Shown one piece after another: positions 12,335 through 17,662 of a stretch of 64,000 nucleotides of DNA. How positions within the stretch are numbered: position 1 is the first letter of the stretch; each line of letters begins with the position of its first letter. The position numbers and the translations under genes are program-made. The stretch lies in NCBI GenBank assembly GCA_029260115.1, contig JAJDDW010000115.1, forward strand, positions 1 through 64,000, in the 5' to 3' direction. The notes under the pieces were generated by a model. The model saw nothing but the letters and a program-made list of their open reading frames with translations, was not told where the DNA came from and made no database searches. This stretch comes from Phycisphaerae bacterium. GTDB taxonomy: Bacteria > Planctomycetota > Phycisphaerae > UBA1845.

Positions 12335-12826
12335 ATGAGACGATTTATGGATTTCAAGGCCATTCAACTGCTAATACTAGATGTGGATGGTGTGCTTACC
12401 GATGGCCGAATCGTTACAACCGTCGATGGCGAGTCAGAAAAGGTGTTTTATGTTCAAGATGGTTTAGCCATCAAACGCTGGCAGGCAGCCGGCCGTGCAG
12501 TCGCCCTGCTGACAGGGCGAAATTCAACTGCGGTCGCATACCGAGCTGCGGAACTAGGCATCGATCACGTGCGTCAGGGCGTTAAGGATAAAATTGGCGT
12601 CTATCAAAATTGGCTGAGTGAACTTGGCGTGTCCGATAAACAGGTCGCTTATATGGGCGACGATTGGCCTGACCTAGAGGTTATGCAGCAGGTCGGACTC
12701 CCCATCGCCGTGGCCAACGCGGTCCCTGCGGTTAAGCGGGCAGCGGAATACATTACGCGCCGTCAAGGGGGCAGCGGAGCCGTGGCGGAAACTATCGAAG
12801 TCCTTCTGCAAAAGCAGACACAATGA
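12335..12826 (+). CDS. kdsC: 3-deoxy-D-manno-octulosonate 8-phosphate phosphatase (KdsC-type HAD)
   Basis: This is a small C0-type HAD phosphatase matching KdsC, which makes Kdo for lipopolysaccharide. The nucleophile and acid/base Asp pair is in LDVDGVLTDG (D16, D18). Motif II is LLTGR, followed by HVRQGVKDK with the Lys of motif III. Motif IV is MGDDWPDLEVM. The 163-residue length is normal, and an ATG at 12347 would give 159. The stop overlaps the next start as ATGA. That next gene is an LptC/LptA-like protein, the same order as kdsC-lptC-lptA in proteobacteria, which supports the assignment. Confidence 0.9.
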   Translation: MRRFMDFKAIQLLILDVDGVLTDGRIVTTVDGESEKVFYVQDGLAIKRWQAAGRAVALLTGRNSTAVAYRAAELGIDHVRQGVKDKIGVYQNWLSELGVSDKQVAYMGDDWPDLEVMQQVGLPIAVANAVPAVKRAAEYITRRQGGSGAVAETIEVLLQKQTQ

Positions 12827-15800
12827 TAAAAGTGAACACAACAAACGATCAATCACGCTACCAGCGCTTATCTCGACGCTCGCGCCGCCGGGCCAGCGGT
12901 CTGCTGCGCGGCATTGTGGTCGGCTTAGCGACGCTCGCGATTTTGCTCGTATGTTTTTCCATCTACCAGTTCAGTCAAATTGACCCGCAAGCCACCGGTT
13001 CCAAACAAACGACGCGCCTGCCCGAATTGCCGCAAAAAATTCCGGGGCAACCACAGAACACAGATGATGGCGTGCCTGTCTCTGGTGGCCGAGTGGGAAC
13101 GGCGCTACGAAGCAAGCTATCTCTATTTCGTCCCGATAGTGACCGCGCCTGGGGCGAGGTAGAAGTTGGCCGGCTAACGCCCGTAGCTGGAGAAGGCAAC
13201 GAAATCGCACTCGAAAACCCGGTCATTCGACTGCGCACGCAAGATGGTCATGGCGTACGCATCACCTCAAAAGAGGCTATCGTCGAAGGACAAATTAGTC
13301 ATGGCCTGACGCCGATGCGGGGCAAATTATTTGGCGGCGTTATCATCGAATACGATCGACTGTCCGAAAAGCAACGAGCCCTCTTGCCTGAAGATACCCG
13401 ACACGTACTAGAACCATCGCAGGTCGTTCGTATTGAAGCCAACGAAATCGTCTTTGACGTCGAGTACTCAAAAGTTGTCGTGCCCGGCGACATCGCGATT
13501 CTAGCTTCGGACATTTCTTTTAGATCAGCCAATATGGAAATACGTTTCGACGAATCGGCCGGTCGTGTTGACTATCTTCGCATCGAAAGCGGCGGCACGA
13601 TAGAACTCAGCGGCCAGGCCTCAACCCTAGGCATAACCAACGGACAAGAAGCTCAGCCAGGAAATTCCGTGGTCAACTGGATACGACAAACCATCGCATC
13701 GAACATCCTCGCCGCACAACAACAAGCCGATAAGGGCACGCTAATTGAAGAGCCAAAAGAAAGTGCGACCGACGAAACCGTGCCCACATTCTCCGCTACG
13801 GATGATCCCGCAGAAGCGGAGGTAGCCAAACCGACGTTGAAATACATCGCTCGCTTCGCAGACCATGTCGATGCTAGGCAAGTAGCGGGCGATAAAACTC
13901 TGGCACGACTCGAAGCTGACACGCTAGATATTTTGCGAAGTGTGTCAGCTAGTGATCGTAAGCAGGTGCAATCACAAACCAATACGGCACAAGAAGCTTC
14001 ACCGCAGACTGCTGCGGCAATAGAAGAAAAGATTTCACTGTCATGGCAAGGACACTTTTCGCTAGAAGCTTGCGGAAAAAATGATGAACGATGTGCGCCG
14101 AAGGTCAGGTCTCAACTTACCGCGAAGGGTTCCCCAGTTAGACTTTCCAACGACGAAGGCGAAGCCACCTGTGGCCAATTGATATACAACCCGGACGATG
14201 GCAGCGTGACGCTCAGCGAGTCGGAAAAAACGACGGTGGTTGTACGCTCTTTAGCTGATGGTGAGATTTACGGGACGGGCATTGATCTAAAACCTGGCGA
14301 GGAAGACATAGCCATCCTCGTCACGGGGCCGGGCAAATTGGTTCGTAACAACCATGCGCAAACCGCAACAGGAACCAGCCAAAACCCGCCGACTGGTCGA
14401 ACACCATTGTCGGTTGCGTTTAGCGACAGCCTTGAGGTCATAGGCCATTACGAAAAACGCACCAAGCTAAGCTTCTCCGGAGGTCTTCGACACACACGAG
14501 CTCGTATACTCGATAAAGCCATATTCCTCGGCAACGTAGACCTCATCGAGCAAGATGCCTCACTCTCCGCTGACCAACTCGCATTGTATTTTGGCAAAGA
14601 CACCATCGGGCGACAGCAAGAGCAATCCATTCAGCGTGTTGAGACCAGAGGTCATGTGCGTCTAGATCGACTCCATGATAGCATGGTCTGTAGCGAATTG
14701 GATGTTATCGTCACGACCGACGCCGATGGCCGACTGATGCCCTTGATGGCCACCGCCAGAAGAGACATCGTTGCTAGCCAGGAAGACCGCACGATTCGTG
14801 CCCGCGACCGTCTCGTCCTCGACTTTCAAACAGTTACTCGGCCAGCGTCACCCTTTGACCCCGCCAAGGCCTATCAGGCTGCGATCAGCGCCGGGGTTGA
14901 TCCTCAAAAAGTTGATTGGGAGGCTCGTAGACGAGAGCACGAAATGAAAGTGCGTACGGAGATCGGTGCGAAACGATTGCGCGCTTATGGCGATGTCATG
15001 GTCACCGATGAATCACAAGCCTTAGAACTGAGCGCACAAGAATTAGATTGCACGATCGTCAACGGTAGCGATATCGATAAAACGCTGATCGTCGGCACGC
15101 AAACCCAACCCGCCTCCGTCACAATTGGTGAATTCACCGTGACAGGCGAGCAGGTTAACGTCAACGTGCTTGATGAATGGGCTCAGGTCCCCGGCGCGGG
15201 GCGAATGACATTTCAGTCGCACAAAGATTTAGACGGCAGACAATTAGATCAACCTATTCCCGTATCCGTGACGTGGGAAGAATGGATGAAATTTCAGGGT
15301 CGCGAAAATCGCTCTGTCTTTTCGGGAGAGGTACACGCCACGAGTGCCAGTGGTACGACGTTTGATTGTAGTCAATTGGTCGTTGAATTTGATGACGTAG
15401 CGCTCGCCAAGACGCAGCCACAACGCCGCGATTGGTGGATTTTTGATAAGTTCGTTCAACGATTCGAGCAGGATAAAAACGGCACGAGTTCCGCCCGTGG
15501 CATTCTCGCCAAAGAGCCAGCCTACATTTTAGCCACCGGTCGGGCCGTGGTGCAAACGACTTCTTTGGATGAATTAACCGGGGAACCACGAACCAGAGCG
15601 CGTCTCGCAGGACCGCAATTATCCGTTAACCTGCGCCGCGGTATGTCAAAAATGCTCATCGAAGGCGCGGGCGATTTATTGATCGAAGATTTCACGCTCG
15701 CCCAGTCAAGCAGCTCACAACTAAACGAAGCTACCCCGCGCGGATTCTTGGGGACAGACGCCAATTCCGGACCCTCAAAAACATTCGTCACTTGGTCCGA

Positions 15801-16281
15801 AGCTATGTGGTACGACTTTTCGATCGATCAAACGAGATTTGAAGGCGATATTAACCTGAAACATTTCAGCGGCGAACATCTGAAACGCCTATTCCCTGAT
15901 ACAAAGAATGTCGACACGGACACGGCTTCGGGGCGGGCCACGTTTCTATTGTGTGACGTGCTTACCATCGATTTCCTTGGCGAGCAATCAGCCAGCACCC
16001 ACCCGCAGCAGCAAATGGGAAGATTAAGCACAACACAGTTGCGACAGTTCCATGCGTCGGGCCAAGTGAGGTTGCAAGACCAGACAGAAGGACTTTCGCT
16101 CACTGCCAGCGACTTGACATTCGAGCGGGAACGAGAACTACTCATCATACAAGGCCAGCCCGCGCGAATTATTCAACAACGACAAGGACAATTGCCTGTA
16201 GATGCAACGGTAAAAAGAGCGTTCTATAACTTACGCACCAAAAGACTCGAATCAGAACAAGCCATCATTCGAGGCCGATAG
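12823..16281 (+). CDS. Giant LptC/LptA (OstA)-like envelope protein
   Basis: This is a 1152-residue protein with one N-terminal membrane anchor (about residues 28-48, after an Arg-rich cytosolic start), so most of it should lie in the periplasm. The region after the anchor resembles LptC in position and pattern. The rest is dominated by short beta-strand repeats typical of the OstA/LptA jelly-roll family (e.g. ARLEADTLDI, ETRGHVRLDR, ASGQVRLQDQTEGLSLTASD). LptC and LptA are each about 190 residues, so this would be a fused and greatly expanded bridge protein. Coupling to kdsC by ATGA overlap supports a role in LPS transport. No lptB, lptD, lptF or lptG is in the window. The family link is by pattern only. 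Confidence 0.72.
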   Translation: MIKVNTTNDQSRYQRLSRRSRRRASGLLRGIVVGLATLAILLVCFSIYQFSQIDPQATGSKQTTRLPELPQKIPGQPQNTDDGVPVSGGRVGTALRSKLSLFRPDSDRAWGEVEVGRLTPVAGEGNEIALENPVIRLRTQDGHGVRITSKEAIVEGQISHGLTPMRGKLFGGVIIEYDRLSEKQRALLPEDTRHVLEPSQVVRIEANEIVFDVEYSKVVVPGDIAILASDISFRSANMEIRFDESAGRVDYLRIESGGTIELSGQASTLGITNGQEAQPGNSVVNWIRQTIASNILAAQQQADKGTLIEEPKESATDETVPTFSATDDPAEAEVAKPTLKYIARFADHVDARQVAGDKTLARLEADTLDILRSVSASDRKQVQSQTNTAQEASPQTAAAIEEKISLSWQGHFSLEACGKNDERCAPKVRSQLTAKGSPVRLSNDEGEATCGQLIYNPDDGSVTLSESEKTTVVVRSLADGEIYGTGIDLKPGEEDIAILVTGPGKLVRNNHAQTATGTSQNPPTGRTPLSVAFSDSLEVIGHYEKRTKLSFSGGLRHTRARILDKAIFLGNVDLIEQDASLSADQLALYFGKDTIGRQQEQSIQRVETRGHVRLDRLHDSMVCSELDVIVTTDADGRLMPLMATARRDIVASQEDRTIRARDRLVLDFQTVTRPASPFDPAKAYQAAISAGVDPQKVDWEARRREHEMKVRTEIGAKRLRAYGDVMVTDESQALELSAQELDCTIVNGSDIDKTLIVGTQTQPASVTIGEFTVTGEQVNVNVLDEWAQVPGAGRMTFQSHKDLDGRQLDQPIPVSVTWEEWMKFQGRENRSVFSGEVHATSASGTTFDCSQLVVEFDDVALAKTQPQRRDWWIFDKFVQRFEQDKNGTSSARGILAKEPAYILATGRAVVQTTSLDELTGEPRTRARLAGPQLSVNLRRGMSKMLIEGAGDLLIEDFTLAQSSSSQLNEATPRGFLGTDANSGPSKTFVTWSEAMWYDFSIDQTRFEGDINLKHFSGEHLKRLFPDTKNVDTDTASGRATFLLCDVLTIDFLGEQSASTHPQQQMGRLSTTQLRQFHASGQVRLQDQTEGLSLTASDLTFERERELLIIQGQPARIIQQRQGQLPVDATVKRAFYNLRTKRLESEQAIIRGR

Positions 16282-16736
16282 TTTACCCACCACCCGATAC
16301 TTAATAATTAACCCGGTTTTACCAGCAGAAAACACTGTTTCCTAAATGACTTACACAAATTTTTACATTTTACTTGCTTCCGATAACCCACGAGGCATAG
16401 AATTTTACAGTGAGATGGCAGCAGCTAACTACCAGTAAGTGCGGGCCTGTAATTGGCCTTCATATTCTCAGCCTACGAATAAGGCGTGAGATGATTGAGC
16501 ATGCATAGCGACCAACCTACACGGCCACGATCAATGCGTTGTGGCATACTTTTGTCAACCGAAATAAGCCTTGGCTAGAGTAAGTTTTTGTATTGTGTAG
16601 TAATAGAAACTCGGTTTTTCCCAAAAGGTTGTCGTAACAATGCGATACACAATAACGTAGGATGCGATGGCGAAATAACGAAGCATTCGTTTTTCCCTTG
16701 CATGTAGTATCGAATGATGCACTGAATATTAGAGAG
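16282..16736. other. Gap upstream of the candidate RNA
   Basis: These 455 bases hold no protein-like frame. A perfect 9-bp inverted repeat, TATTGTGTA (16591-16599) / TACACAATA (16646-16654), lies about 80 bases before the candidate RNA. A weak promoter-like pair (TTGCAT at 16698, GAATAT at 16724) immediately precedes it, but the 20-base spacing is poor. Confidence 0.4.
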
Positions 16737-16883
16737 ATGGTGGTGGAATGATCCTGTGTCGCGTTAGAAACTGTGCTTTCCGTATGGGGAAAGAGGAGGA
16801 CGCGACCGTTGCGATGGATGCTTGGGTGACAGAACCGTTGGAGCGCGAGCCTTCACCCAAGTATCCGTCCATTCCATCACCAT
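16737..16883 (+). ncRNA. Candidate structured RNA, three-way junction
   Basis: The sequence folds into a compact three-helix junction. P1 pairs 16737-16750 with 16870-16883 (14 pairs). P2 pairs 16758-16764 with 16800-16806, with an inner hairpin 16776-16781 / 16788-16793. P3 pairs 16813-16829 with 16853-16869 (17 pairs), and its 3' arm runs straight into the 3' arm of P1. The only three non-Watson-Crick pairs in P1 and P3 are G-U on the plus strand and would be A-C on the minus strand, which points to a plus-strand transcript. It matches no RNA family I recognise. A 45-codon frame (16748-16885) overlaps it. Confidence 0.55.
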
Positions 16884-16921
16884 AACTAATTGCGCCCTAA
16901 TAATTCAGAATCGAGATTGAC

Positions 16922-17542
16922 TTACTCCGGCAATATATCCACACGACCGTCAGCCAGGCGAATTCGCTGCTCACAAAATAAACGTACGGCTTCAGGATAT
17001 GCGATACATTCCTGCTCGAACACTTTTCCAGCGAGCGTCTCGACAGTGTCATCGGTGCTCACATCGACTTTGCGTTGTAAAACAATCGGACCATGGTCGT
17101 ATTCATTATCGCAAAAATGAACGGTACAACCGCTAACCTTTTTACCTGCAGCAATTACCGCTTCATGAACGCGATGACCAAACATCCCCTGGCCGCCAAA
17201 CGCTGGTAGCAGTGCAGGGTGAATGTTCATCACCCGCCCCAGAAAATTCTCCGGAATGTGCCATAACGACAAGAAACCAGCCATGCACACCAGATCAACC
17301 GATTGAACGGCTTCAGTTATCTCAGCCTGAAAATCAGCGCTGCTGAGTTTTTTTCGTTCGATGAGAATGATGGGTAAGCCGCATTGCTTTGCACGCTCGA
17401 CGCCAGCGACATCGGCCCGTGAACTAATCACGATATCAATCTGCGCGTTTAGATGCTGTTCGCGTATATGTTCGTGCAGATTAACCATTGTCCGACCGCC
17501 ACCGGACAACAGTACCGCCAATCGTAATCGCTTCTCGTTCAT
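16922..17542 (-). CDS. purN: Phosphoribosylglycinamide formyltransferase
   Basis: This is GAR transformylase, the third step of de novo purine synthesis, using 10-formyl-tetrahydrofolate. The N-terminal block LAVLLSGGGRTMVNL matches the family's G-S-G glycine loop. The active-site blocks are MNIHPALLPAFGGQGMFG (catalytic Asn and His) and the catalytic Asp in DNEYDHGPIVLQ, preceded by SGCTVHF. From the ATG at 17542 it has 206 residues. A TTG at 17569 would add nine. It sits alone just upstream (5' side) of nothing purine-related, though guaA and guaB lie in the same 10 kb. Confidence 0.94.
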   Translation of the reverse strand: MNEKRLRLAVLLSGGGRTMVNLHEHIREQHLNAQIDIVISSRADVAGVERAKQCGLPIILIERKKLSSADFQAEITEAVQSVDLVCMAGFLSLWHIPENFLGRVMNIHPALLPAFGGQGMFGHRVHEAVIAAGKKVSGCTVHFCDNEYDHGPIVLQRKVDVSTDDTVETLAGKVFEQECIAYPEAVRLFCEQRIRLADGRVDILPE

Positions 17543-17662
17543 CAGTATTGGTTCAATGCGCCTATCCAAACATGGCTAAGTTGCTGGCTGTCCCTAGCGA
17601 CGTCTTTGGGAAACTGCGGACGCTGTAAATGTCGCATACCATGATAAAACTAGCTCAACTAA

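Follow-up and report, generated by a model that had tools for sequence, protein, structure and literature searches.

What does the plus strand encode at positions 16737-16883 of the window, the whole 64-kb stretch of DNA analysed here? A preliminary description of this locus had proposed a novel structured RNA on the plus strand, built around a three-way junction, and had left a coding alternative open. We folded the region, searched for homologues of the RNA, which is called RNA-A below, and followed its core into other genomes.

A structured RNA in an intergenic stretch

The minimum free energy of RNA-A was -73.6 kcal/mol, against a mean of -45.5 (sd 4.0) for shuffled sequences (z -7.1), and 0 of 200 shuffles were as good. 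The minus strand of the same interval folded more weakly (-56.7 kcal/mol). The parts of the fold are listed below, with the evidence for each in brackets.

16737..16883, plus strand: RNA-A, structured RNA with a three-way junction (fold, same-locus homologues in G001 and G002, no Rfam match)
16737..16750, plus strand: P1 5' arm, 14 bp, partner 16870-16883 (fold and 3-species alignment)
16758..16806, plus strand: P2, core hairpin inside the 8-bp stem 16758-16765/16799-16806 (fold and alignment)
16773..16794, plus strand: core, GUGCUUUCC-GUAU-GGGGAAAGA, with the hairpin CUUUCC/GGAAAG (recurs in 7 further genomes)
16776..16793, plus strand: inner hairpin of P2 (fold)
16813..16829, plus strand: P3 5' arm, 17 bp, partner 16853-16869 (fold and alignment)
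16853..16869, plus strand: P3 3' arm (fold and alignment)
16870..16883, plus strand: P1 3' arm (fold and 3-species alignment)
16922..17569, minus strand: convergent formyltransferase gene, purN-like (Pfam PF00551, E 2.5e-38)

Folding thus recovered the proposed architecture, namely a 14-bp P1, a P2 with an inner hairpin and a 17-bp P3 whose 3' arm directly abuts that of P1. The wobbles were also as described: on the plus strand P1 has one G-U and P3 has one U-G and one G-U, and among the homologues G-U alternates with Watson-Crick pairs. The earlier strand argument, by which these positions would be A-C on the minus strand and so point to an RNA of the plus strand, holds. The region matched no Rfam family at the gathering score and yielded no credible hit even at E up to 10, in line with the earlier statement that no 5S, SRP, 6S, tmRNA or RNase P signature was recognised. 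The sole Rfam match in the window was a tRNA at 1-73.

RNA-A lies in a 640-base intergenic stretch. To its left is a large plus-strand reading frame (12823-16281) without a Pfam match, and the formyltransferase gene adjoins RNA-A in all three genomes of the genus, as judged by synteny. In the genus of the window, no intrinsic terminator was found after P1, no U-run after the hairpins of RNA-A and no promoter above chance.

Two other elements were observed in the same stretch. A terminator-like hairpin at 16524-16545(+), GCCACGATCAATGCGTTGTGGC, has a T-rich tail and may mark where the upstream transcript ends. The other, at 16607-16676(+), is a dispersed repeat roughly 65 bases long; counting this copy, it occurs in 9 places in the own genome (79-87% alike), and it is also present in G001. 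It contains a TATTGTGTA/TACACAATA inverted repeat, is separate from RNA-A, and looks like an insertion because the same place in G002 is without it.

Conservation of RNA-A within the genus

RNA-A was found at the same locus in both other genomes of the genus (G001 and G002, both metagenome assemblies). In the alignment of the three sequences, 95.3% of the cells were paired, compared with 38-51% when the 3' partners were slid by one to three columns. The paired fraction was 88.9% for P1 and 95.8% for P2. P1 and P2 each contain two pairs in which both partners had changed, four in all. P3 has 13 invariant pairs and three one-sided wobble changes, and is nearly uninformative because it is almost invariant. 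Compensatory changes, which the preliminary description had named for P1 and P3 as the supporting result, appeared in P1 (two pairs) and not in P3. The covariation support for RNA-A is modest, given that the alignment has no more than three sequences and that the observed measures were reached by 14-46 of 500 shuffles. Even so, the same-locus homologues with compensatory changes support the proposed plus-strand structured RNA, and very probably RNA-A is a real structured RNA that is new to Rfam.

One copy was present per genome, by which a mobile or repeated element was ruled out. At the G001 locus (L010), a second hairpin, UUUCC-N-GGGGAAAGA, lies immediately upstream of RNA-A (GATTTTCCTGAGGGGAAAGATTG), as if the core had been duplicated.

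The core of RNA-A recurs in other genera

A search with a covariance model (R1), whose hits rest on sequence and P2 since its P1 and P3 were closed two columns out of register, and then with DNA patterns, located the 22-base core, GUGCUUUCC-N4-GGGGAAAGA, in four further genera of the family, at intergenic loci (G025; G033 and G060; G027, with GGGCUUUCC; G034). Across 397 genomes of the class the core pattern matched in 8, which were 7 RNA-A loci and one doubtful locus; the reversed control pattern gave a single match in the same genomes. G025 is outside this sample, yet it carries the core. Two candidates were set aside: L022 (R1, E 0.3) is without the core, and in G101 (L039) the one match to the core is not followed by a hairpin plus U-run.

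The 6-bp core hairpin was invariant in 8 of 8 sequences, with a varying loop. In the other genera a strong plus-strand hairpin directly follows the core, and then a U-run in G025, G027 and G034. These loci stand alone, in unrelated gene neighbourhoods. The full three-way junction is confined to the three sequences of the genus, and outside it the core hairpin is accompanied by another hairpin. Because the core occurs in the other genera without P1 and P3, these two helices look like a genus-level scaffold, and the core is the shared part. RNA-A is patchy in the family (8 of 51 genomes).

A widespread C-rich small RNA resembles the core in the opposite sense

When the core pattern was allowed two mismatches, a far commoner relative of the core was found, which we call RNA-B. 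At E <= 0.05, the RNA-B model (R3) matched 218 of the 397 class genomes, each of which has 1-10 copies; in a phylum-wide sample it matched only three genomes outside the class, all weakly. RNA-B had no Rfam match. It reads GGCUUCUUUCCCCUCC-GGAAAGCACCG-loop-CGGUGCUUUCUUUUUU, a C-rich stretch followed by an intrinsic terminator, and CCCCUCCGGA was invariant in an alignment of 34 sequences. In the terminator, 9 of 13 pairs had changed on both sides and 98.9% of the cells were paired (0 of 500 shuffles). Of 49 copies, 47 have a U-run on the minus sense and none has one on the other sense, and 15 A-C oppositions turn into G-U on the minus sense. Because of the U-run, the wobbles and the covariation, RNA-B is assigned the sense opposite to that of RNA-A, and on the same grounds the idea that RNA-A is a same-sense relative of RNA-B was dropped. 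A copy from the own genome is as follows.

G000:C107:16215-16279 (locus L103), minus sense: RNA-B

In the family of the window, a copy lies between a ribonucleotide reductase (RNR) gene and rpsP-trmD (rpsP and trmD were named by eye). RNA-B was rejected as an rpsP leader, since the genes that follow it elsewhere are different ones or are oriented the other way. Overall, the comparative sequence evidence strongly supports RNA-B as an undescribed small-RNA family that is C-rich and terminator-ended.

On visual inspection two further features recurred: a TATA-like box, placed about 55-65 bases upstream of the seed, and, close to the 5' end, a GGAGG that possibly pairs with the seed. There is also a second type of RNA-B with a GCUUUUCCCCUCC seed, which often follows an EF-G-like gene (alignment A3, with L074 1460-1605 and related loci). 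Beside it, on the other strand, is a conserved AUGG..CGCC..GGCG..UCCGCAUAA segment.

RNA-A is complementary to the seed and terminator arm of RNA-B

The plus strand of RNA-A carries the reverse complement of the RNA-B seed and of the 5' arm of the RNA-B terminator. The centre of the match has four bases in RNA-A and three in RNA-B, hence a small mismatch in the middle. This relation becomes visible only when other loci are compared. The C-rich stretch is taken as the functional seed of RNA-B on account of its invariance. RNA-B was common, and was present in all 8 genomes with RNA-A.

When the RNA-B of the own genome was compared with both strands of the window, the core was the best site (-38.6 kcal/mol; next best, -32.5). 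In seven further genomes the core gave -40.7 to -49.5 kcal/mol, and the strongest alternative site of the locus gave -30.5 to -36.0. In each of the 8 genomes, 0 of 500 shuffles paired as well (z -5.1 to -7.5). This pairing was limited to the plus strand of RNA-A; the opposite strand reached -18 to -25. Thus RNA-A is complementary to the seed of a small RNA of the same genome, and this partner is conserved and terminator-ended, as is looked for in a sponge.

Co-folding of the full-length RNAs gave no gain in the own genome (-128.2 versus -128.2 kcal/mol separately) and a gain of 2-16 kcal/mol in the other genomes. The core is self-complementary, and its 6-bp hairpin competes with the pairing to RNA-B. 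Compensatory change between the two RNAs is not demonstrable because the RNA-B seed is nearly invariant.

A sponge model and its alternatives

The most conserved part of RNA-A is the reverse complement of the RNA-B seed, so RNA-A probably mops up RNA-B. We give about an even chance to the reading that RNA-A is a stand-alone, structured, non-coding sponge of RNA-B, by analogy with RosA and RoxS in Bacillus. In this model the core, GUGCUUUCC-N4-GGGGAAAGA(AGC), would be displayed on the P2 arm and would pair with the exposed RNA-B seed GCUUCUUUCCCC and with GGAAAGCAC of the terminator 5' arm, across a short mismatched centre. Binding would rest on GGGGAAAGA in RNA-A and UCUUUCCCC in RNA-B. Once paired, RNA-B would have its anti-Shine-Dalgarno-like CCCCUCC masked, and its terminator stem could be opened. 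As a result, the action of RNA-B on mRNAs would be blocked, and RNA-B would perhaps be marked for decay. The model would also explain why the complementary bases are kept and the central four are variable. It presumes that the two RNAs are transcribed and bind each other in vivo, that ribosome-binding sites are where RNA-B acts, and that RNA-A antagonises RNA-B and is not just another of its targets. Weighing against the model are the self-complementarity of the core, the zero gain on co-folding in the own genome, the patchiness of RNA-A beside a common RNA-B, and the lack, in the genus of the window, of an intrinsic terminator after P1 and of a promoter above chance.

It is possible, although we do not favour it, that RNA-A, as a structured non-coding RNA, has a separate function, such as binding a protein by way of the core hairpin. 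Its likeness to RNA-B would then reflect shared ancestry or the coincidence of a palindrome and not a working interaction. Such a function would suit the core hairpin, invariant in all sequences around a variable loop, as well as the elaborate P1/P3 scaffold of the genus, which a sponge does not need, and the lack of net gain when the full-length RNAs of the own genome were co-folded. However, the bases outside the palindrome, GUG, GG and A(AGC), fit RNA-B only in antisense and are conserved, and a plain hairpin would tolerate compensatory changes, of which none were seen.

RNA-A could also be an ordinary regulated target, or a 3'-end or terminator structure between convergent genes, instead of a dedicated sponge. 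It does sit between convergent genes in the window, the core precedes a convergent gene at several loci, and RNA-A has what a C-rich small RNA would need in a target. We consider this improbable, because the hairpins in the genus lack a U-run, the genes next to the loci of the other genera are unrelated and upstream of some loci they diverge, and conservation of a 22-base core across five genera would not be expected of an ordinary terminator.

Finally, the overlapping 45-codon frame is where it had been described.

16748..16885, plus strand: 45-codon frame overlapping RNA-A, judged not coding (codon-position and homologue comparison)

An AFRxGKE-like string can be read in an open frame through the core in 8 of 8 sequences, but a small protein is very improbable: substitutions spread evenly over the codon positions (6/7/7 and 13/10/10) with no third-position excess, G002 has a frameshift (1-nt deletion) and no ATG, the synonymous sites GCT/TTC/GGG/AAA never vary, and the residues flanking the string differ between genera. 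The coding alternative that had been left open is therefore disfavoured; the frame exists and the coding signature is absent.

Discussion

Returning to the sponge model, we tentatively propose, a little less firmly than the model itself, that this planctomycete class, in five genomes of which no Hfq was detected, uses a widespread multi-copy RNA-B, and that some of its genera evolved RNA-A as a target-mimic, terminator-invading sponge. The five genomes searched for Hfq belong to the family of the window, and the same search was positive in 5 of 14 control genomes, including E. coli and B. subtilis. If the proposal is true, there are two new RNA families, RNA-B in more than half of the sampled genomes of the class and the apparent sponge RNA-A, and their circuit operates in genomes without detected Hfq. 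RNA-A and RNA-B would form a specific regulatory circuit that is directly testable, and RNA-B is the most valuable by-product of the analysis.

Very few small RNAs, in 8 distinct families, are annotated in the Planctomycetes-Verrucomicrobia-Chlamydiae group (PMC9029176). The literature on planctomycete small RNAs held nothing matching RNA-A or RNA-B, and a sponge/small-RNA circuit of this kind is unreported from Planctomycetota in the databases and papers searched.

RNA-B resembles RoxS/RsaE and FsrA in having an exposed C-rich stretch, UUUCCCCUCC, with predicted Shine-Dalgarno-like pairing, and an intrinsic terminator. Unlike them, it has no Rfam match, and its seed lies directly against the terminator stem. 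RsaI of Staphylococcus is, like RNA-A, a stand-alone RNA and a proposed binder of C-rich small RNAs; RsaI also has a C-rich region for mRNA targets, whereas none is evident in RNA-A (PMC8216469). The closest analogy is with RosA of Bacillus subtilis, a sponge of RoxS and FsrA with three G-rich regions, two of them predicted to be single-stranded (PMC8216469). RosA and RNA-A belong to different phyla, and RNA-A differs in having one core, placed inside a hairpin on a three-way junction, which also matches the terminator arm of its partner. Nevertheless, both are stand-alone, G-rich and complementary to a C-rich small RNA, in the case of RNA-A by predicted pairing only.
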